Of a DNA stretch of 64,000 nucleotides, positions 37,495-46,752 are shown piece after piece. Source of the DNA: Labrenzia sp. DG1229 (GTDB lineage: Bacteria > Pseudomonadota > Alphaproteobacteria > Rhizobiales > Stappiaceae); NCBI RefSeq assembly GCF_000521215.1, contig NZ_KI928919.1:338939-402938 (forward strand), given 5' to 3'. The number at the start of each line of letters is the position of its first letter. Within the stretch, counting starts at the first letter, position 1. The notes below the pieces were generated by a model. The model saw nothing but the letters and a program-made list of their open reading frames with translations, was not told the origin of the DNA and did no database searches. Both the position numbers and the translations under genes were made by a program.

Positions 37495-38193
37495 TCATTT
37501 TTCAGTTTCAATCAGGAAGGGGAGCTCGGCTTTCAACCGGCCAAGAACATCGTTCGCACGGATGCGGACCGGATCACCGCAATCGGCATTGGCGAGTTTC
37601 TCGATCATGGCTTCGGGCCTGTCTGCGGGCGAGAGCTCCGCAAGGGCCTGGTCTGCCAACTGGTTGCGTTCCTGCTCTTGCAGAATGTCGTCCAGCTGGT
37701 GCTCAGCCTTGACAAGAGCGGATTGGCCCGCAACGGCGCCGAGTGACTGGGCCTTTTGGATCTGCTGGCGGACTTCTGCGGTTCGTTCGCCGCGCTTGAG
37801 GGCGCGAAGCCTGCCTTGAGCCCGGTGCAACTGGTCCGTCAGGGTCAAGAGGTCCTTGTCGAATTTGCGGATGGCGGCCTCAAGGGCGGCCTTTTCATCT
37901 TCCAGTACTGCAATGGCTTCGGCAGCTTCGCGTGCCAGTGTCTCGACACCCTTGAGAAGTGCGTTCCTTGCCCGGTTTTCCAGATCCTCGATGGATACTG
38001 AAATCTGCCTGAGGCGATTGCGATCCTGATGCTGTTCTGCCTTGGCTCTGGCCAAGGCAGTCTGTGCAGCCCTGACGGAAGTTGCAGCGTCACGCACGTT
38101 CCAGCCAAGTGAGGTTATCGATGATTGCTGTCTGCCGGTCTGGGCACTTGTTTCAAACAATGCCTTCAGTTGAGATATGAGCGGTTCGAACAT
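37495..38193 (-). CDS. pspA: PspA/IM30-like coiled-coil membrane-stress protein
   Basis: This is a 232-residue, largely helical protein: MFEPLISQLKALFETSAQT, then long coiled-coil stretches (AAQTALARAKAEQHQDRNRLRQI, LEDEKAALEAAIRKFDKDLLTLTDQLHRAQGRLRALKRGERTAEVRQQIQKA). This matches the PspA/IM30 fold, though it is divergent and lacks a clear amphipathic N-terminal helix. PspA proteins stabilise damaged inner membrane. The ATG at 38193 follows GGAGGAAAG. It is divergent from a TetR gene, with twin operators between them. Confidence 0.75.
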   Translation of the reverse strand: MFEPLISQLKALFETSAQTGRQQSSITSLGWNVRDAATSVRAAQTALARAKAEQHQDRNRLRQISVSIEDLENRARNALLKGVETLAREAAEAIAVLEDEKAALEAAIRKFDKDLLTLTDQLHRAQGRLRALKRGERTAEVRQQIQKAQSLGAVAGQSALVKAEHQLDDILQEQERNQLADQALAELSPADRPEAMIEKLANADCGDPVRIRANDVLGRLKAELPFLIETEK

Positions 38194-38209
38194 CTTTCCT
38201 CCATAAAAA

Positions 38210-38222
38210 TGAACAATGTTCA
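38210..38222. promoter_or_regulatory. TetR operator copy proximal to pspA
   Basis: TGAACA-A-TGTTCA is a 13-bp perfect dyad, 17 bp upstream of the pspA-like start. Its partner lies 57 bp away (centre to centre). The TGAAC/GTTCA style is common for TetR sites controlling their own divergent operon. Confidence 0.7.
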
Positions 38223-38266
38223 CTATTTGACAAAGCCACATCAAATGCGCTAGGTCAAGAAAAAAA

Positions 38267-38279
38267 TGAACTCAGTTCA
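38267..38279. promoter_or_regulatory. TetR operator copy proximal to tetR
   Basis: TGAACT-C-AGTTCA is a 13-bp dyad with one base changed per arm from the first copy, 24 bp upstream of the tetR start. Together the two sites would let one repressor control both divergent transcripts. Confidence 0.7.
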
Positions 38280-38302
38280 CTTTTACGTGCAGGGATTGGT
38301 TA

Positions 38303-38893
38303 ATGTCGGGAATTCAAAGAGCCAAAAGCGAGGAAACCCAGCGCAGGGTCCTTGAAGCTGCGATCAGGGCCGTCGAGGCGGGCGGAATGGAAGCCGTGCA
38401 AATCCGCAGGATTGCCGCGGAAGCAGGATATTCGGTCGGCTCGGTATACAAGCACTACGAAGATCAGGATGCCCTGATCGCGGCTGTTGATACCGTTACG
38501 CTGGAGCGTATCAAAACTGACATGTCAAATGCGATCGAGGGGATCGAGGATCCTCTAAAGCAGCTGAAAACGCTGGCGCGCACTTATCTGGAATTCGCTC
38601 GCCGGCATCGAAACTTGTGGGTAACGCTGTTCACGCATCATTTGCCCGATGGCCGCCCAGTGCCGGATAGCCACATCCAGGGGACGGTCGATCTTCTGAC
38701 TTATGTTGCTGTTCCGCTGAAGAAACTTAATCCCGACCTTACCGAAGACCTGCTGGCCGCGCGTACCCGAACCTGCTTTTCAGCACTCCACGGGCTGGTG
38801 TCCATCAGTCTTGAAGAACGGTTCGTTGGCCTGCCAGGCGACGAGATGGATCGGGAAATGATGTTTCTGGTTGAGAGGCTGGCGGCGAAGTAG
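38303..38893 (+). CDS. TetR-family regulator of the pspA operon
   Basis: This 196-residue protein has an N-terminal TetR HTH (RVLEAAIRAVEAGGMEAVQIRRIAAEAGYSVGSVYKHYEDQDAL) and a helical C-terminal ligand domain (YLEFARRHRNLWVTLFTHHLPDG, ARTRTCFSALHGLVSI). It is divergent from the pspA-yiaA-aas run and separated by the twin operators. The inducer is unknown, but a fatty-acid or membrane-damage signal would fit the target genes. Confidence 0.9.
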   Translation: MSGIQRAKSEETQRRVLEAAIRAVEAGGMEAVQIRRIAAEAGYSVGSVYKHYEDQDALIAAVDTVTLERIKTDMSNAIEGIEDPLKQLKTLARTYLEFARRHRNLWVTLFTHHLPDGRPVPDSHIQGTVDLLTYVAVPLKKLNPDLTEDLLAARTRTCFSALHGLVSISLEERFVGLPGDEMDREMMFLVERLAAK

Positions 38894-38924
38894 CAAGCCC
38901 CGCTCAGGCTGGAGTAATCTTTCC

Positions 38925-40406
38925 TCAGGTTCCGCAAAACGTTTTGTAAGGACCGAATTCCACAGGTGCAGGGCCGGAATATGCGTCCATGCCAGGTTGT
39001 TCGGTGAATGGCGCGGCAAGTACGTCCATTAGTTGCCGTGCAGGTTCATAGTTTCCGGTTTCAGCTGCCTCAAGGGCTTCTTCGACCTTGTGGTTTCGGG
39101 CGATGTAGACCGGGTTGACCCTGTTCATTGCGTCGCGTGTTTTGCCTGACGTCGTATTTTCCCCTTGCAATCGGTCCTTCCAGCGCTTCAGCCAAGCATC
39201 GATGCCTTCCTGCTCTTCAAATTGCGCGCGAAGTGCCTTCTCGTCACCGGTCGCAGCGTCTGCCAGGTTTCGAAACAACTGCGTGTAATCCACATTTTGC
39301 GCCTGCATTTGGCTCAGCAGTTCCTCGGCCAGGGGCGGGTCGTCACTTTGGACCGTCGCAAGGCCGAGTTTTTTGCGCATGCCGGCAAGCCATGCCGTCT
39401 TGTACAGATCCGGGAAACGTCCGAGTTCCTCGGTGACACGCTCCACCGCCTTGTCGATATCATCCGGATCGATCAGAACCAGAATGGCTTCAGCCAGGCG
39501 TGCCAGGTTCCATTGAGCCATTACCGGTTGCCGGCCGAAAGCATAGCGACCGCCATGATCAATTGAGCTGAAAACCGCCGCAGTATCATAAGTGTCGATG
39601 AATGCGCATGGGCCGTAGTCAATCGTCTCTCCGGATATCGTGGTGTTGTCGGTGTTCATGACGCCGTGGATGAAACCAACCAGCACCCAATGCGCGATCA
39701 GCCCCGCTTGCCGTTCCATCACCCGGGAGAAAAGTTTCAGGTAACGATCGTCTTCCTTTTCCAGGTCAGGGTCATGGCGTGCAATTGCGTAATCTGCAAG
39801 TTGTCGAAGCTTGTCGGTTTCGCCACGCGCAGCGAAGAACTGAAACGTACCGACGCGAAGATGACTGCTTGCAATCCGTGTCAGGACGGCGCCCGGCTTG
39901 GGACCTTCCCGGTAGATCGTTTCACCAGTCGTGACAGCGGCAAGGGCACGGGTTGTGGGTATGCCCAGGGCGTGCATGGCTTCACCCAAAATATATTCCC
40001 GCAAGACGGGCCCTATGACTGCCTTGCCGTCTCCGCCGCGGCTGAAGGGTGTCGGGCCGGATCCCTTCAACTGAATGTCGCGACGCTTTCCAGCCAGGTT
40101 GATGACTTCTCCGACGAGGAGAGCGCGGCCATCGCCCAGTTGCGGCGAAAAGCCTCCGAATTGATGCCCCGCGTAAACCTGTGCCAGGGGAGATGCGCCA
40201 TCCGGACACTTCAATCCCGCAAAAATCGCGGCGCCATCCGGCGTTTCAAGCGCCGCACCGTCCAGTCCGAGTTCTTCCGCAAGCGTTCTGTTGAAGAGCA
40301 CGAGCTTGGGCGCTGGAACCTTTGCACCTTCCCACGCAACATAAAAACCTGGAAGGTCACGTGCGTAGGAATTGTCGAACTGGAAGAGTGGTGCGTTGGC
40401 GGTCAT
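38925..40406 (-). CDS. selO: Protein adenylyltransferase SelO
   Basis: This 493-residue pseudokinase-fold protein (UPF0061/YdiU) has YARDLPGFYVAWEGAKVPAP, then QVYAGHQFGGFSPQLGDGRALLVGEV. The ATP-site block is IQLKGSGPTPFSRGGDGKAVIGPVLREYILGEAMHALGIPTTRALA, followed by VGFIHGVMNTDNTTISGETIDYGPCAFID (catalytic HGVMNTDN). SelO AMPylates Ser/Thr/Tyr residues during redox stress. This version ends after FGPYKTFCGT, retaining the conserved C-terminal Cys (CGT). ATG 40406 is preferred (AGGACAG upstream) over GTG 40427. Confidence 0.92.
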   Translation of the reverse strand: MTANAPLFQFDNSYARDLPGFYVAWEGAKVPAPKLVLFNRTLAEELGLDGAALETPDGAAIFAGLKCPDGASPLAQVYAGHQFGGFSPQLGDGRALLVGEVINLAGKRRDIQLKGSGPTPFSRGGDGKAVIGPVLREYILGEAMHALGIPTTRALAAVTTGETIYREGPKPGAVLTRIASSHLRVGTFQFFAARGETDKLRQLADYAIARHDPDLEKEDDRYLKLFSRVMERQAGLIAHWVLVGFIHGVMNTDNTTISGETIDYGPCAFIDTYDTAAVFSSIDHGGRYAFGRQPVMAQWNLARLAEAILVLIDPDDIDKAVERVTEELGRFPDLYKTAWLAGMRKKLGLATVQSDDPPLAEELLSQMQAQNVDYTQLFRNLADAATGDEKALRAQFEEQEGIDAWLKRWKDRLQGENTTSGKTRDAMNRVNPVYIARNHKVEEALEAAETGNYEPARQLMDVLAAPFTEQPGMDAYSGPAPVEFGPYKTFCGT

Positions 40407-40790
40407 GAATTCTGTCCTGATGTTCACCTGAGGTGCTCAGGTCGTTATCTAGCAAAATATATGGAGCTGTGTTCGAATTTTCCCCCCAGTGAACACTTCA
40501 TGTCTCAATGGATAGTTCGTATATCGCCTCGGTATATACCGGGACAGTGACCGTCATCCTTCTTTGTGAACCCTGGATGCAAAGGGATGATGCTGACAGA
40601 AGTCTTTTAATTTACTGAAAAACATAAATATTTTTTAGGAGAGTTGTATAATTTCAGTGTCTCGATTGTATTTTTGCTTACGCCTAACTTTAAATAGCGA
40701 TCAAAATATTGTATAATTCCATTCGCTCAACCCAGGGTATTTTTGAGCGTTGTATTTTTCTGTTTTTTTCTCTTGATTTGGATTCCAGTC
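40407..40790. other. AT-rich spacer upstream of the protease-nuclease cassette
   Basis: This stretch of about 384 bp has no supported gene. It contains a 12-bp perfect palindrome CGGTATATACCG (40530-40541). The 10-bp direct repeat TTGTATAATT occurs at 40644-40653 and 40709-40718, each with a consensus TATAAT -10 hexamer. From about 40600 it is T-rich and unlike neighbouring GC-rich DNA, as often seen beside horizontally acquired cassettes. Confidence 0.6.
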
Positions 40791-42761
40791 ATGAAATCGG
40801 TGTTCCAGTCCCAGCTAGAAGAATTGCAGACAGTCGAGGAACTTCTCGACAACGAGAAGTACATTGTTGCGGAAACGCCGTTCCCGGCGAACGAGGGGCT
40901 GGAAGGTGTCAGCCCGGTTACAGCCGGTTCGGCCTCGCTTGAAGAAGCGGTCGATCGTATCAGGACGGGAAAAGCGGATCTTGGTGCTCCGACCTATACC
41001 GAAGCAATCGTCATGCGCACCGGCTTTCCGTCATTGCTCGTGCAAAACGGCACTTTTGAAGATCCGAAGCTCGATCACTGGAAAAAGGTACTTCTGCCCA
41101 GACGTGACCAGATCAACAAGGCCATTGTCAATGTCGGTCGTGTGGATCTGGTGAATGATCCCAATGCCAAATGGATAGGCACCGGCTGGCGTGTGAATGA
41201 AGACACATTTGTAACCAACAGGCACGTTGCGGAATATTTTTCACGCCGAAGCCGGGGTGGTTGGGACGTTGCGCCTGGTATCAAGGTTTACATGGACCTG
41301 AAGGAAGAACACGAGTCCGACGAGCAACTTGAATTGCTGGTTTCATCGATTTTGCACATTGAACCGACAGGTCTGCCCGATGTCGCGATCATGCGCGTGA
41401 AAAGCGCTGCACTGAGCGGCATGGCGGACCCGATATCCTTGCAACTGGATGGACAAAGGCCCGAAACCATCGGTGTGATTGGATATCCCGCGAAAGCCGT
41501 TCGCGACAATCCCGTGGACGCGATGGATCGCTATTTTGGCGATATCTACAATGTGAAACGATTTGCGCCCGGGCGGATCATGGATGAAGACCATTCGTCT
41601 TCGGTGTTCACCCACAACGCCACCACACTCGGCGGAAACTCCGGTTCGGTCATCATTGATGTCGAGACCGGCTGTGCCGCCGGTCTTCACTTCGCAGGCA
41701 GTGCGCTCACGCAAAACTACGCAGTGAAAATCGGTACGGTTGCCGATGTACTGCGCCGCAAATCAGTCCATTTCACGACCTGTTCCGAGGTGGATGGTTC
41801 CGGCGGAAATTCCGGTTCAGGCAAAGGCGGCGGGTCCAGTTCGGAAGATGCCGGACGTTTTGGAGACCGAGAGGGGTATCAGCCGGACTTTCTTGGACGC
41901 GGTTCATTGCGTGTGCCGCTGCCGGAGCTGAACACCATGCAAATGCGCAAACTCGCGCGTACAGATGCAGGTGAAAGCGAGCTGAAATACAGGCATTTTT
42001 CGGTCGTCATGAATGGAGAGCGACAACTGGCGTTCTATGCCGCTGCAAATATTGATGGAAACGAACTGCGCAGGCCAAGGCGCGTCAAGTCATTCAAACT
42101 CGATCCTCGCCTCGCCGAAGACAAACAGGCGGGAGAAGATCTCTATTTCGACAATGACCTGGACCGCGGTCATCTCATCAGGAGGCTCGATCCCTGTTGG
42201 GGAACAAAATCCCAAGCCGACGAGGCAAACCGGGATTCCATGTTCTTTCCCAACATCGCTCCGCAACACAAGAAGCTTAACCAGAAAATCTGGCTTCGGT
42301 TGGAAGAACATGTTCTTGACCGGGTGGATGAGGTCGATGCGAAGATTTCCGTTTTCGTCGGGTGTTTGTTTGACGATGGCGATCCGGTTCAAAAACCGAG
42401 CGGCGTCAAGGTTCCCATGGGTTTCTGGAAAGTTGTTGCATCGATAGGTCGTTCTCAAAGAGGCCGATCCAGCCGGCGCGTTCTGCAGGCCCAGGCATTT
42501 TTGTTGTTCCAGGGACATCTCGTAAAACCTGGAGACCTGGAGCTCGTCTTCGGACAGGGGTTCGAAGAACACCAGGTCACGATTGAAGAACTTGAACGGT
42601 TAACCGGACTTGATTTCGGTTCCTTGCGAGATGCCGACACATTCGCGGTGACACAGGAAATGCGTGTTGAGCACAAGGAACGTCTGGAAACGACGACCGG
42701 CCTCATCACCGACACCTCGGACCACATCAAACCGCTGGGTTCCGTCGAAGACGTGATCTGA
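40791..42761 (+). CDS. Trypsin-like serine protease fused to DNA/RNA non-specific endonuclease (NUC)
   Basis: This is a 656-residue fusion. Residues about 110-330 form a trypsin-like domain with FVTNRHVAEYF (His145), PTGLPDVAIM (Asp197) and TLGGNSGSVII (Ser284). A Gly/Ser linker (336-352) joins it to a NUC nuclease (about 390-600) with NDLDRGHLIRR (His461 in DRGH), MFFPNIAPQHKKLNQKIW (Asn488, Asn497) and LEEH (Glu505/506), the likely Mg-site residues. Both active sites look intact. The frame extends upstream to TTG 40743, adding a hydrophobic stretch, but that stretch is encoded by T-rich DNA and ATG 40791 seems as likely. The peptidase gene starts 24 bp downstream. Confidence 0.85.
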   Translation: MKSVFQSQLEELQTVEELLDNEKYIVAETPFPANEGLEGVSPVTAGSASLEEAVDRIRTGKADLGAPTYTEAIVMRTGFPSLLVQNGTFEDPKLDHWKKVLLPRRDQINKAIVNVGRVDLVNDPNAKWIGTGWRVNEDTFVTNRHVAEYFSRRSRGGWDVAPGIKVYMDLKEEHESDEQLELLVSSILHIEPTGLPDVAIMRVKSAALSGMADPISLQLDGQRPETIGVIGYPAKAVRDNPVDAMDRYFGDIYNVKRFAPGRIMDEDHSSSVFTHNATTLGGNSGSVIIDVETGCAAGLHFAGSALTQNYAVKIGTVADVLRRKSVHFTTCSEVDGSGGNSGSGKGGGSSSEDAGRFGDREGYQPDFLGRGSLRVPLPELNTMQMRKLARTDAGESELKYRHFSVVMNGERQLAFYAAANIDGNELRRPRRVKSFKLDPRLAEDKQAGEDLYFDNDLDRGHLIRRLDPCWGTKSQADEANRDSMFFPNIAPQHKKLNQKIWLRLEEHVLDRVDEVDAKISVFVGCLFDDGDPVQKPSGVKVPMGFWKVVASIGRSQRGRSSRRVLQAQAFLLFQGHLVKPGDLELVFGQGFEEHQVTIEELERLTGLDFGSLRDADTFAVTQEMRVEHKERLETTTGLITDTSDHIKPLGSVEDVI

Positions 42762-42785
42762 CAGGTTTTCCGGAGGGAAACAAAC

Positions 42786-44822
42786 TTGAGCGCCGCAAAG
42801 TCAAGTCTCCTGTTTCGCGGAGAACGTTTGCTGACCACCAGCGCGGATGTGGGAGACGTACGAGACTACGTATACCAGCCCGCGTTGTCGGGATTGGCGC
42901 GCCAAGTCGATCCGCGGTCGGGAAACTCTCTCTGGTGGAGCAGTGGCCGCATACGCGATCAGGGTGATGCGGGAAGCTGTACCGCACACGCGCTGGCGGG
43001 AATTATCGATCACCTTCGTGTGCGCGATCGCATGCTCGACAAATCCGAGAAAACGAAGCTGGGCAAGGGAGACAGAAAACCCTGGGCTTCAGCAAACATG
43101 CTGTACAACATTGCGCGATTTCACGACAGATTTCCTGGCGAGAATTATGAAGGATCGTCGATCCGGGGGGCTTTGCAAGCATTCTATTTCAACGGGGCGT
43201 GCGCGGACATGGTCGCCAAGGGACTATCGGGGCGGGAATGGCACATGACCAGGGAAATTCTGGAAAGTGCGCGCAAGGTTCAACTGGGTGCCTACTATCG
43301 CGTCCGGCCAAGATTGCCGGATGTACACGCAGCCCTTTGCGAGGCCGGACTGGTCCTGGCTTCCGCCGACATCCACGAGGGATGGTCAACCAAAACCGGT
43401 AGCATCAGTCTTCCCAAGACGAAGTCCGAAAAGTTGGGACGGCATGCCTTTATTCTTGTCGGATATACGGAACGCGGATTTCTCGTGCAGAATTCCTGGG
43501 GTGCCAATTGGGGCGAAGATGGGGTGGCACTCTGGAGTTACGAAGACTGGGCCTCCAGTGTCGTCGACATGTGGGTTCTCAGGCTCGCAGTTCCGATCGC
43601 CAGTCACTCCGCAATCGGCAGCGCTCAGGCAGCTGTTTCAAGCGGAGCACAGATGGGGCAGGGCGCATTCGATCATGCATCCATTGACCCTGTCTCACCG
43701 CCCACGCGCTTCGACGTCCTCGGCCATATCGCCTCGACCTCGCGCGGAAAACTGGATCGCTTCGGTCCATACCATATCGATATGGCAACGTTGAAAGAGA
43801 CGGTCAGGATCCTCGCCGAAAGCTCCAGATACAAGCACATCCTGATTCATTTCATGGGGCTGCAGCGGCACGAGAACGCGACGATGTCGGCGCTCCGTGA
43901 CGCAGTTCCCGTTTTCAAGAAGAACGGGGTTTATCCGTTTTTTGTCACTGTCGAAAACGATTTGTGTGTTGCCGTACACGATATGGTGGAAGCAGAAGTC
44001 GGACACGCGAACAAACTCATCGGGCTGGGCGAGAGCCCTGAAAAAGATCGCCACATTGAGGGGCATTTGTCTGGCGCCGCGCTTCGGATCGTTGAGGAAA
44101 TCCGGCGCAGCTCCATGTCTGTCGTCTATAAAAGCGAGCAGAACACGCTCGGCGAAGGCTTGCAAATCCTCAATGATCTGTTCAGCGCGCTTGAGCCCCG
44201 GTATCGCCAGGGTGAGATTTCATACCATATGTCCGCACACGGGTTCGGATCGTTGTTGCTCGCCGAATTGTTCAGACAGACGGATTACTGGAGCCGGCAG
44301 CCGATCTTTTCCTCTCTCAGCCTGTTTTCACCCATGTTGCCTGAAGATCTTTTCCGCAAAAGTTTCGTCGAGCGACTGTTTCACCCGCGCGATCTGCCAG
44401 TCAGCCGCAAGGCGCGAGGCTCCGACATCGGCATAGAAAAAGTCGATCTGTATATTCAGAGCGAAGATGCGATGCGTGAAGATCGGCCCCTTCCGGGATA
44501 CGGCGGCAACTGGCCGTTGCTTTGGGGGCGCGTGCTTGCGATGGCTGAAAGGCGTGCCAACGGGAGTTATTCGGGTCTTGAAACCGGCGGTACGTACCGG
44601 TGCGAAAACCGTGAACAGGCGCGTTTGCTTGCGCTTGGTACACCCGCAACCAGTTTGTCCGATGAGCCCGGCGTAGAACTCAAGAGGCTGTTCGGACCTC
44701 ACCGGGATTTCGATCTGCGCACTGAATTGCTTGATACACTGTTGGACCGCATTCTGAACGGTGATGCCGCACTGCCTTTCGAAACAGCTTTTCCCGACAG
44801 GGAAAGCCTGTTGAAGACTTGA
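42786..44822 (+). CDS. Papain-like (C1A) cysteine peptidase with long unassigned C-terminal region
   Basis: This is a 678-residue protein starting at TTG 42786, with GGAGGG eight bases upstream. Residues about 25-265 form a C1A fold with all active-site parts: GRIRDQGDAGSCTAHALAG (Gln59, Cys65), GRHAFILVGY (His220) and FLVQNSWGANWGEDG (Asn236). No signal peptide or inhibitor-like propeptide is seen. The remaining 400 residues (about 285-678) are unassigned. ILIHFMGLQR, YPFFVTVENDL and ISYHMSAHGFGSLLLAELF recall an alpha/beta-hydrolase fold, but the expected elbow Ser is Gly. It follows the protease-nuclease gene in one apparent operon. Confidence 0.82.
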   Translation: MSAAKSSLLFRGERLLTTSADVGDVRDYVYQPALSGLARQVDPRSGNSLWWSSGRIRDQGDAGSCTAHALAGIIDHLRVRDRMLDKSEKTKLGKGDRKPWASANMLYNIARFHDRFPGENYEGSSIRGALQAFYFNGACADMVAKGLSGREWHMTREILESARKVQLGAYYRVRPRLPDVHAALCEAGLVLASADIHEGWSTKTGSISLPKTKSEKLGRHAFILVGYTERGFLVQNSWGANWGEDGVALWSYEDWASSVVDMWVLRLAVPIASHSAIGSAQAAVSSGAQMGQGAFDHASIDPVSPPTRFDVLGHIASTSRGKLDRFGPYHIDMATLKETVRILAESSRYKHILIHFMGLQRHENATMSALRDAVPVFKKNGVYPFFVTVENDLCVAVHDMVEAEVGHANKLIGLGESPEKDRHIEGHLSGAALRIVEEIRRSSMSVVYKSEQNTLGEGLQILNDLFSALEPRYRQGEISYHMSAHGFGSLLLAELFRQTDYWSRQPIFSSLSLFSPMLPEDLFRKSFVERLFHPRDLPVSRKARGSDIGIEKVDLYIQSEDAMREDRPLPGYGGNWPLLWGRVLAMAERRANGSYSGLETGGTYRCENREQARLLALGTPATSLSDEPGVELKRLFGPHRDFDLRTELLDTLLDRILNGDAALPFETAFPDRESLLKT

Positions 44823-45058
44823 CGGTCGGTTCCACGACATCGCGATTGCAGATACGAGGGCGGGCATGATCGCGGACAGCATTGGACGATGCCGAATGGA
44901 ACCGGATGCGGTCCTGGAAAGAACCGATGCTGTCAGTTGACGTGCACCCATGTTTACATCGGAAATAATAAATATCGATTTTTTCCAAAACGGTAAGATC
45001 TGCCTTTGCCATTGTGGCGTAATGCTTCTGTAATCAATCGACACTTGGAGTAGATGTC

Positions 45059-45568
45059 ATGAAAAAGAGCCTTTCGGCCCTTGTTGGAGCAGTGTGTATT
45101 TTTGCCAGCCAAGCAAATGCGAATACGATTGTTGAGATCGCCGCGGGGGATGAACGTTTCACCACGCTTGTTACGGCCGTTCAGGCAGCCGGGCTTCAGG
45201 ATGCCCTCCAGGGACCAGGTCCTTTTACTGTGTTTGCTCCGGTAAATGATGCCTTCGCGGCGCTTCCTGAAGGCACCGTGGAAACATTGCTGAAACCGGA
45301 GAACAAGGACCAGCTCACAAATGTGCTTCTCTATCACGTTGATGACCGCAAGTTGACGTCCAGTCAAATCCCGGTTGGATCCAACTATTTCAAGCCGCTT
45401 TTGACGAGCGAACGCACGTGCATTACCCGGTCAGGCAAGGCGGTTGATATTGCCGATGGTACCGGCTCGACCGCAAACGTCATCATCGCGGATATCCTGG
45501 CGGACAACGGCGTGATCCATGTGATCGACAAGGTCCTGATCCCTGGAAACCGTCCGGATTGTCACTGA
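45059..45568 (+). CDS. Secreted fasciclin (FAS1)-domain protein
   Basis: This 169-residue protein has a signal peptide (MKKSLSALVGAVCIFASQANA) and one FAS1 domain: FTTLVTAVQAAGLQDALQGPGPFTVFAPVNDAFAALP (H1 box), LTNVLLYHVDDRKLTSSQ, and DILADNGVIHVIDKVLIP (H2 box). FAS1 domains mediate adhesion. The ATG at 45059 follows CTTGGAG. Two cysteines (in RTCIT and PDCH) may form a disulphide. It appears monocistronic. Confidence 0.92.
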   Translation: MKKSLSALVGAVCIFASQANANTIVEIAAGDERFTTLVTAVQAAGLQDALQGPGPFTVFAPVNDAFAALPEGTVETLLKPENKDQLTNVLLYHVDDRKLTSSQIPVGSNYFKPLLTSERTCITRSGKAVDIADGTGSTANVIIADILADNGVIHVIDKVLIPGNRPDCH

Positions 45569-45759
45569 CATAGTTGCTGAACCGGCGGGCGACCTGGTTT
45601 GCCGGCCGGTTTCATCACAGGTTTCATTCCAACTCGTCGGTCATTTCGGCGGGTTTTCATTTTTCCGGTTTTTGCGCAATCGAACGGGCTGTCGCAAATC
45701 AGCACTTGGCAGCTTGCATGAATCGACCGACAAATCTTGAGTAAACCGGGAGCAAATAC

Positions 45760-46752
45760 ATGCGAGCCATAACATATGACCGTTTCGGCGATGCCGCTGA
45801 GGTATTGCAGCTGGATGCGCTTCCGGTTCCCGAGGCTGCTGATGGTGAAGTGCTCGTCCGCTTGCATGCGTCGGGGGTCAACCCGTCCGATGTTCGGGTT
45901 CGCGCGGGCGGCCGCCCGGGTGTAACCAAACCGCCTTTCCCGAAGATCACGCCCCATAGCGATGGTTCGGGCGTGATCGAGGCCGTTGGTGTCGGCGTTC
46001 CCGAAAGCCGGATCGGGGAACGGGTCTGGATCTGGAATGGTCAATGGCAGCGGGCTTTTGGTACGGCGGCCGACTACATCGCGCTTCCGGCAGATCAGGC
46101 CGTGACCCTGCCAAACCATGTTTCCTTTGAAGAAGGTGCCGTTCTCGGTATTCCAGGGATAACAGCCTGCCACGCGGTTCTCGGAGGCGGGTCGGTCGCC
46201 GGTCGGAAGGTACTTGTGAGTGGCGGAGCAGGGACAGTCGGGCGACTTGCCATTCAGGTTGCCGTTGCTTCGGGAGCGCAGGTACTTTCAACGGCGCGAG
46301 GCGAAAAGGGAATACAGGCGGCAAGAGATGCCGGTGCAGACGCGGTTTTCGACTATTCCGCCGAGAACCTGTCTGACCAGATCCTGGAAGTCACCGAAGG
46401 TCGCCCGATTGACCGTATCGTCGAAGTTGAATTCGGCAAAAACATCGAGATGAACACGAAGATCATTGCCGAGAGAGGAACCATTGCCGCAATCGGTTCG
46501 GCGAAAGACATGACACCTGTGCTGCCATTCTATCCGCTGATGTTCAAGGCTGTGACGATCGATCTGATCCTTGTCTATATTTTGTCGGGAGCAGAGCGCG
46601 CGGCTGCTATCGGAAACCTTACGGATCTACTGGACCGCAAGGTGCTCGATTTCCAGATATCGCAAGTTCTTCCGCTTGAAGACTGCGCAAGGGCGCATGA
46701 GATCATTGCATCAGGGAACAGGTCGGGTTCCGTCATTCTCAAAACCTCATGA
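45760..46752 (+). CDS. Quinone oxidoreductase (zeta-crystallin/QOR-type MDR)
   Basis: This 330-residue medium-chain reductase begins MRAITYDRFGDAAEVLQLD and has LHASGVNPSDVRVRAGGRPG. The NADPH-binding VLVSGGAGTVGRLAIQVAVASGAQVLSTARG replaces the zinc-dehydrogenase site; no catalytic Zn Cys/His set is seen, so it belongs to the zinc-independent quinone oxidoreductase branch. VLPLEDCARAHEIIASGNRSGSVIL is the typical C terminus. Its acceptor is unknown. Confidence 0.9.
   Translation: MRAITYDRFGDAAEVLQLDALPVPEAADGEVLVRLHASGVNPSDVRVRAGGRPGVTKPPFPKITPHSDGSGVIEAVGVGVPESRIGERVWIWNGQWQRAFGTAADYIALPADQAVTLPNHVSFEEGAVLGIPGITACHAVLGGGSVAGRKVLVSGGAGTVGRLAIQVAVASGAQVLSTARGEKGIQAARDAGADAVFDYSAENLSDQILEVTEGRPIDRIVEVEFGKNIEMNTKIIAERGTIAAIGSAKDMTPVLPFYPLMFKAVTIDLILVYILSGAERAAAIGNLTDLLDRKVLDFQISQVLPLEDCARAHEIIASGNRSGSVILKTS

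Follow-up and report, generated by a model that had tools for sequence, protein, structure and literature searches.

The question raised by this locus is what two adjacent hydrolase genes do together, one of which joins a trypsin-like protease to a nuclease while the other encodes a papain-like peptidase with a long C-terminal extension. The window, i.e. the whole stretch of 64,000 nucleotides of Labrenzia sp. DG1229 that was analysed (contig NZ_KI928919.1, positions 338,939 to 402,938), belongs to a 7.63-Mb genome of the genus Roseibium, the nearest named relative being R. album (gene 2 96% identical). The pair lies on the + strand between a SelO gene and a fasciclin gene, with gene 1 at 40791-42761 and gene 2 at 42786-44822. 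The original prediction had placed two hydrolase reading frames here, and both are present and belong to families supported by Pfam. The preferred reading, to which a probability of roughly one half is assigned, is a two-gene intracellular suicide module in which the papain partner controls a trypsin–nuclease executioner.

Gene 1 (40791..42761) encodes a protein of 656 amino acids that was matched by Trypsin_2 (PF13365, E 3.6e-10) and Endonuclease_NS (PF01223, E 7.7e-42). The Trypsin_2 domain spans residues 130-299 (41178..41687, +) with the triad H145/D197/S284, and the NUC nuclease domain spans residues 391-611 (41961..42623, +) with the DRGH histidine H461 and residues N488, Q492, and E505. 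Active-site residues were invariant across an alignment of 13 family members. Among 49 trypsin–nuclease proteins, H145 was conserved in 48, D197 in 48, S284 in 47, H461 in 47, and N488 in 48; the exceptions (L104, L160, and a gap in L083) are all without papain pairing, and H461 and N488 were kept in 13/13 papain-paired copies. By alignment, the active sites of gene 1 are judged intact. The domains are separated by a fast-evolving Gly/Ser linker (residues 331-358, 41781..41864, +), for which the nonsynonymous substitution rate (dN) against the homologue at locus L060 was 0.88, compared with 0.15 and 0.12 for the flanking domains; a fast linker between constrained domains suits a tether or a cleavage region. 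Residue 278, which we take to be the expected S1-pocket position by chymotrypsin numbering, is a threonine, so specificity for Arg/Lys is not expected.

The start of gene 1 had been placed at a TTG at 40743, 16 codons upstream of ATG 40791, and this candidate was rejected on the stops and the poor upstream conservation. The ATG stands at the matching position in 7/7 homologues examined. R. album, L096, and L097 have a stop codon 2 to 8 codons ahead of the ATG, and of the 48 bases upstream only 11 to 30 agree with the window; four Roseibium homologues have no stop in this stretch. ATG 40791 is the probable start and gives the 656-residue protein. The upstream TTG would add a hydrophobic stretch, which is probably untranslated because of these stops and the poor conservation. 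With gene 1 numbered from this ATG, the catalytic residues named in the original prediction (H145, D197, S284, and H461 in gene 1; C65, H220, and N236 in gene 2) were correct.

Gene 2 (42786..44822) encodes 678 amino acids from a TTG start, ahead of which a GGAGG ribosome-binding-like site was read from the sequence (42772..42776, +). Its protein was matched by Peptidase_C1 (E 9.4e-8, 32.8 bits against a cut-off of 20.7), and the papain domain covers residues 13-275 (42822..43610, +) with Q59/C65/H220/N236. Residues C65, H220, and N236 were invariant across an alignment of 10 family members, and the papain Q/C/H/N set was kept in 45 of 46 proteins, the exception (L064) being a truncated gene call. 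With a family profile, the best solved relative was PDB 3ois (E 4.5e-24), presumably xylellain, a bacterial cysteine protease of Xylella. Its chain has 291 amino acids, the likeness to gene 2 is limited to the papain part, and we know of no nuclease partner for it.

The 400 extra residues that the original prediction had pointed out in gene 2 are indeed present and are assigned, through relatives, to an alpha/beta-hydrolase-type domain (residues 306-678, 43701..44819, +) that has lost its nucleophile and is retained under purifying selection (ratio of nonsynonymous to synonymous substitution rates, dN/dS, 0.144 against L060). In most stand-alone relatives the C-terminal region contains both a G-H-S-A-G-like nucleophile motif and an HGG motif. 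At the same site (residues 484-488, 44235..44249, +) gene 2 of the window and its close relatives have A-H-G-F-G, with no HGG and with the histidine at 639 retained. DUF900 was matched by 7/14 members of the domain alignment at E<=0.1, the best at 21.1 bits against a cut-off of 20.5, and the window protein had no match to DUF900 in Pfam at E<=1; against PDB the domain gave a single, non-significant match (E 0.2). The fold assignment therefore rests on the relatives, since the window protein has no significant hydrolase match of its own. A second papain–hydrolase gene of the same genome stands alone (G000:C37:104815-106692; L058:8726-10696) and has an intact GHSAG.

The two genes are separated by 24 bp and, from this gap and the conserved neighbourhood, form one apparent operon. 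Against R. album, dN/dS was 0.079 for gene 1 and 0.070 for gene 2, so both open reading frames are taken to be real beyond chance; against the L060 homologues (75% and 67% identical) the values were 0.091 and 0.130. By these ratios both genes are under purifying selection.

Independent origins of the pairing were indicated by trees of both families. In the tree of 49 trypsin–nuclease proteins, the papain-paired label needs three changes, forced by well-supported branches, and a single paired clade was rejected by the approximately unbiased (AU) test (p 7e-65). In the tree of 46 papain–hydrolase proteins, the paired label again needs three changes and a single clade was rejected (AU p 1e-5). 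The trees suggest that the pairing arose independently at least three times; the tested group was picked after the data had been seen, and the three changes could in principle include losses. Nuclease proteins of <=450 aa (including L128, L129, L143, L145, and L146) were left out of the trypsin–nuclease tree, which includes rows without a Pfam trypsin match (L082) and one very long branch (L104). The papain tree left out L064, a late gene call without the active cysteine, and L026 was omitted as the same record as L077. Proteins of L098, L099, L137, and L140, which a simple gene caller had missed or lost, were added by hand. Within the window group (Roseibium, L096, L097, and L098) both trees branch alike, which is what joint inheritance of the two genes would give.

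Loss of the hydrolase nucleophile maps to one change on the papain tree (support 90/96), and the group without it consists of the window group together with L117, L154, L155, and L159. The other partners found in this group are caspase–GDSL proteins (L117, L159), a fused trypsin (L154, on a long branch), and an S8 peptidase two genes away (L155). A protease partner that is fused or adjacent on the same strand (in L155, two genes away) accompanies 13/13 nucleophile-less proteins versus 5/33 intact ones (L067-L069, L099, and L130), a count that excludes divergent proteases (caspase at L065, trypsin at L157) and the CHAP/NlpC cell-wall enzyme beside L109, and for which the Pfam scan covered only some neighbours of the intact proteins. 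A statistical link between nucleophile loss and protease partner was considered and rejected, since the loss is one tree change and gives only 1 independent pair.

Relatives of the pair adjoin or lie near NLR/STAND, bDLD2, MoxR, caspase, CHAT, and S8 genes. The trypsin–nuclease gene follows genes for trypsin-type and NACHT/AAA-type proteins, the layout of the LypABC system, in L078-L080 (three Roseibium genomes) and on a Paracoccus plasmid (L160); at L089, L090, and L103 its company is a NACHT protein and a bDLD2–trypsin protein, as in Kaur's System 3. MoxR and patatin genes are close by at L151, S8 and CHAT genes at L152, and copies without conflict-type company also occur, e.g. L149 and L150. 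At L081:6594-10259 a single 1221-aa protein combines a PGAP1-like alpha/beta-hydrolase with trypsin and nuclease domains. The LypABC label on these relatives is based on layout and on similarity among these loci; a control search found Endonuclease_NS in Caulobacter vibrioides. A LypB-type NLR was found at E<=1e-5 in 3/3 LypABC-like Roseibium genomes and in 1/13 pair-bearing genomes (G049, at a separate locus), and the window's genome gave no match at the same threshold. The pair is best read as a module that works without a LypB-type NLR, with the papain-type partner in place of the NLR pair.

The architecture of gene 1 is already known, and comparison with published systems places the novelty in its partner. 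A single Tryp–Endonuclease_NS protein, from Fusobacterium, was reported in 2008 (PMC2605481). The NucA/Endonuclease_NS and trypsin-like peptidase of NucA-trypsin System 3 (Kaur 2020, PMC7159879) are both present in gene 1, in the same protein, and activation by cleavage was predicted there for this nuclease-trypsin class. The partners in System 3 are S8 peptidases, EAD1, bDLD2, and STAND, whereas the partner in the window is a papain; EAD1, bDLD2, and STAND, which occur in a subset of System 3, had no Pfam match in the pair or the nine neighbours scanned. The main text of that paper mentions papain once, as an EAD1-linked peptidoglycan peptidase. Likened by description only, gene 1 has the same two domains, order, flexible linker, and catalytic Ser/His/Asn as LypC of the CARD-NLR-like LypABC system of Caulobacter crescentus (Banks 2026, PMC13236601), in which the nuclease domain ends at residue 662, compared with a full length of 656 aa for gene 1. 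The partners of LypC are a CARD-trypsin-ATPase protein and an NLR, whereas the neighbour in the window is a papain–pseudo-hydrolase; a CARD-trypsin-ATPase protein of the LypA kind was absent among the neighbours scanned, no genome-wide search having been made.

The nuclease-protease pairs and Canu (Tuck 2025, PMC12799240) likewise couple a nuclease to a trypsin-like or caspase protease, with the difference that the nuclease is a separate MBL-fold gene, whereas that of the window is of the NUC/HNH type, fused to the protease, and has a papain as the second gene. Cleavage activation was shown for such a pair, which is unrelated to that of the window. In the same paper, HamA of Hachiman lost its ancestral effector residues after gaining a nuclease-protease pair, which parallels the lost hydrolase nucleophile of gene 2. 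Among the papers listed by the literature searches, which did not extend to subscription papers and supplements, none was recognised as describing a papain–alpha/beta-hydrolase gene next to one for a trypsin–nuclease; within the reach of these searches, both the papain–pseudo-hydrolase partner and its recurrent recruitment are undescribed.

The gene structure, the intact protease and nuclease residues, the lost hydrolase nucleophile, the purifying selection, the repeated independent pairing, and the failure to detect a LypB-type NLR in 12/13 pair-bearing genomes are the established part of the suicide-module reading. Under this reading, gene 1 would be the executioner, a trypsin-like protease tethered through a flexible linker to a sugar-non-specific nuclease, and gene 2 the controlling partner, a papain-like initiator protease on a scaffold with a hydrolase domain that lacks its nucleophile and probably binds the trigger or the partner. 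Upon phage infection or another insult, the papain protein would activate the gene 1 protein, either by cleavage or by bringing copies together, and the trypsin domain and the freed nuclease could then act so that the cell dies or stops. We infer this cascade, its direction, its trigger, and its outcome. The original prediction had proposed that one protease activates or releases the nuclease in a suicide-type system, and this agrees with the published prediction for the class (PMC7159879) and with the demonstration in an unrelated pair (PMC12799240); against it stand the LypC nuclease residues, which are dispensable for lysis (PMC13236601).

The LypC result is the first of several points that weigh against a suicide module and is, by analogy, the strongest reason for doubt. 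The S296A substitution in LypC abolishes lysis and the nuclease residues can be dispensed with (PMC13236601), so the nuclease may not be the killer in the window pair; the counterpoint is that H461 and N488 are kept in all paired copies and lost in the LypABC-like L160. As for known defence genes nearby, for which the original prediction had proposed a check, relatives do stand in immune- or suicide-like operons, but around the locus itself PADLOC matched 0/10 genes at E<=0.001. The dN/dS of the cassette was similar to that of neighbouring ordinary genes and therefore gives no pointer to an arms race. The GHSAG motif is kept in the other two papain–nuclease pairings (L099; L067-L069), so pairing does not require loss of the hydrolase. 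Among NTPase sensors, the search of the 13 pair genomes was confined to LypB-type NLRs, with no match in 12. The proposed persistence of adjacency across distant taxa was borne out in part: pairs occur in four further families and the trees need at least three pairings, but many papain–hydrolase and trypsin–nuclease genes are unpaired, and a class sample of 385 genomes (E<=1e-20), with each family in 11, yielded no new trypsin–nuclease/papain pair. Structure prediction was uninformative for both proteins (predicted local distance difference test, pLDDT, 26.9 and 42.8, from alignments of 2 and 6 rows).

The LypC mutants also favour, as an alternative, a lysis module as in LypABC, in which the trypsin would cleave a lytic effector, either to defend against phage or to set gene transfer agents free, with the nuclease as an accessory. 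The loss of nuclease residues in L160 fits this alternative; the retention of H461 and N488 in every papain-paired copy and the failure to detect a LypB-type NLR in most pair genomes speak against it, and it is considered rather unlikely for the window pair.

Distribution bears on the suicide-module reading, for which co-occurrence and adjacency of the two families count as support, and on a further alternative. At E<=0.001, 87 genomes of the family contained gene 2 matches in 19 (12 over a long stretch, 7 limited to a section of the papain region or lying just past it) and gene 1 matches in 24. The pair, adjacent and on the same strand, was found in 9/45 Roseibium genomes: six have gene 1 first beside SelO, and in three (G044, G045, and G069) the papain gene comes first, ~20 bp upstream of the trypsin–nuclease gene, elsewhere in the genome. 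SelO is present in 37/45 Roseibium genomes, and 6 of 30 SelO loci fetched had gene 1 adjoining. Two of the 30 (G067 and G061) have the fasciclin gene beside SelO without the pair; comparison with two such genomes gives an approximate cassette extent of 40407..44960, the left edge being approximate since the left flank had no significant match. Beyond the family, four others contributed a single pair-bearing genome each (G359, G249, G305, and G110). In an order sample of 347 genomes, gene 1 profiles matched 32, gene 2 profiles 21, and both 12, versus 1.9 expected (p 8e-9); outside the genus there were 9 such genomes (p 2e-6), and neither value is corrected for kinship. The genes were neighbours in 7/12 of these genomes (3 Roseibium and the four named above); the match lists were copied by hand and the chance rate of adjacency assumes 5,000 genes per genome. 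Three consecutive genes of G667, from the class sample, encode a trypsin protein, a haem peroxidase, and a papain–hydrolase. Of 72,556 plasmid records, 100 were matched by gene 1, 10 of them over >=80% of its length, and 21 by gene 2, of which none exceeded 80%.

Intracellular proteases of general stress or turnover that travel as a pair but play no part in immunity would fit the ordinary neighbours, the purifying selection like that of neighbouring genes, and the shared SelO-side position in six genomes. This explanation is at odds with the repeated pairing, on independent occasions, with a DNA/RNA-cutting enzyme, with the patchy occurrence across the genus, and with relatives on plasmids and in conflict-system-like operons, and is regarded as improbable. 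The papain protein might instead restrain the trypsin–nuclease, as an antitoxin-like inhibitor or disposal factor, given that the genes are closely linked, that one is potentially toxic, and that a degenerate domain could bind a partner; with papain residues intact in 45/45 copies that reach the active site and many trypsin–nuclease genes lacking a papain neighbour, such a role is very improbable. Least probable are secreted degradative enzymes or interbacterial effectors, the latter a suggestion of the original prediction that found no support: the classical NUC nuclease is extracellular (by PDB names), but neither protein has a membrane-like stretch (by hydropathy only, without a signal-peptide predictor), which agrees with the lack of a clear secretion signal noted earlier, and no secretion gene was present among the nine neighbours scanned.

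A tentative evolutionary account, doubtful as a whole, is an effector swap in bacterial suicide systems. An ancestral papain–hydrolase with a killing hydrolase would have lost that activity once, in a single lineage, retained the domain for sensing or docking, and come to work through separate executioners (trypsin–nuclease, trypsin fusion, caspase-GDSL, or S8); the window pair would be such a module, performing the task of LypABC with no LypB-type NLR. Activation of nucleases by proteolysis was recently shown to be common to a number of immune systems of bacteria and has parallels in animal cell death; the pair would add a papain-type enzyme and a retired hydrolase to this toolbox, and its two parts seem to have been assembled independently three times or more. 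This small two-gene system poses the questions, not answered by LypC, of which protease fires first and whether nuclease or protease is the killer.

The surroundings of the pair are unremarkable. The nine window neighbours scanned with Pfam are ordinary genes, and the AT-rich spacer described in the original prediction was confirmed (32% G+C at 40580-40740). Promoter-like sites numbered 3 versus 2.6 expected and terminator-like sites 2 versus 5.0 expected, and Rfam gave no match at the gathering score within 38000-46000. The same genome contains a second Endonuclease_NS gene (G000:C29:30014-30652), possibly broken, with one stop codon inside the match.

Several side observations concern relatives. 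At L130:5610-11677 and L155:2314-7947 a papain–hydrolase gene is accompanied by genes for another protease (trypsin or S8) and an animal-type haem peroxidase. GDSL-type genes stand beside papain–hydrolase genes at L098, L117, L134, and L135 and share, by eye, an N-terminal motif of about LDEL..LaDPxV...L.PY, a candidate adaptor domain; in L117 and L159 the GDSL protein is, in addition, fused to a caspase. In Roseibium, L087:7415-10285 encodes a trypsin domain fused to a phospholipase D-like domain, a candidate trypsin-linked effector. No trypsin–nuclease was found in viral contigs, and phage records, searched for gene 1 only, gave 2 weak nuclease-only matches. Stand-alone papains of ~250 aa related to this papain family are encoded on viral-classed contigs (L162:4995-5741, L167:4983-5759, and L168:4956-5729), and one of them, by eye, adjoins a muramidase-like gene.

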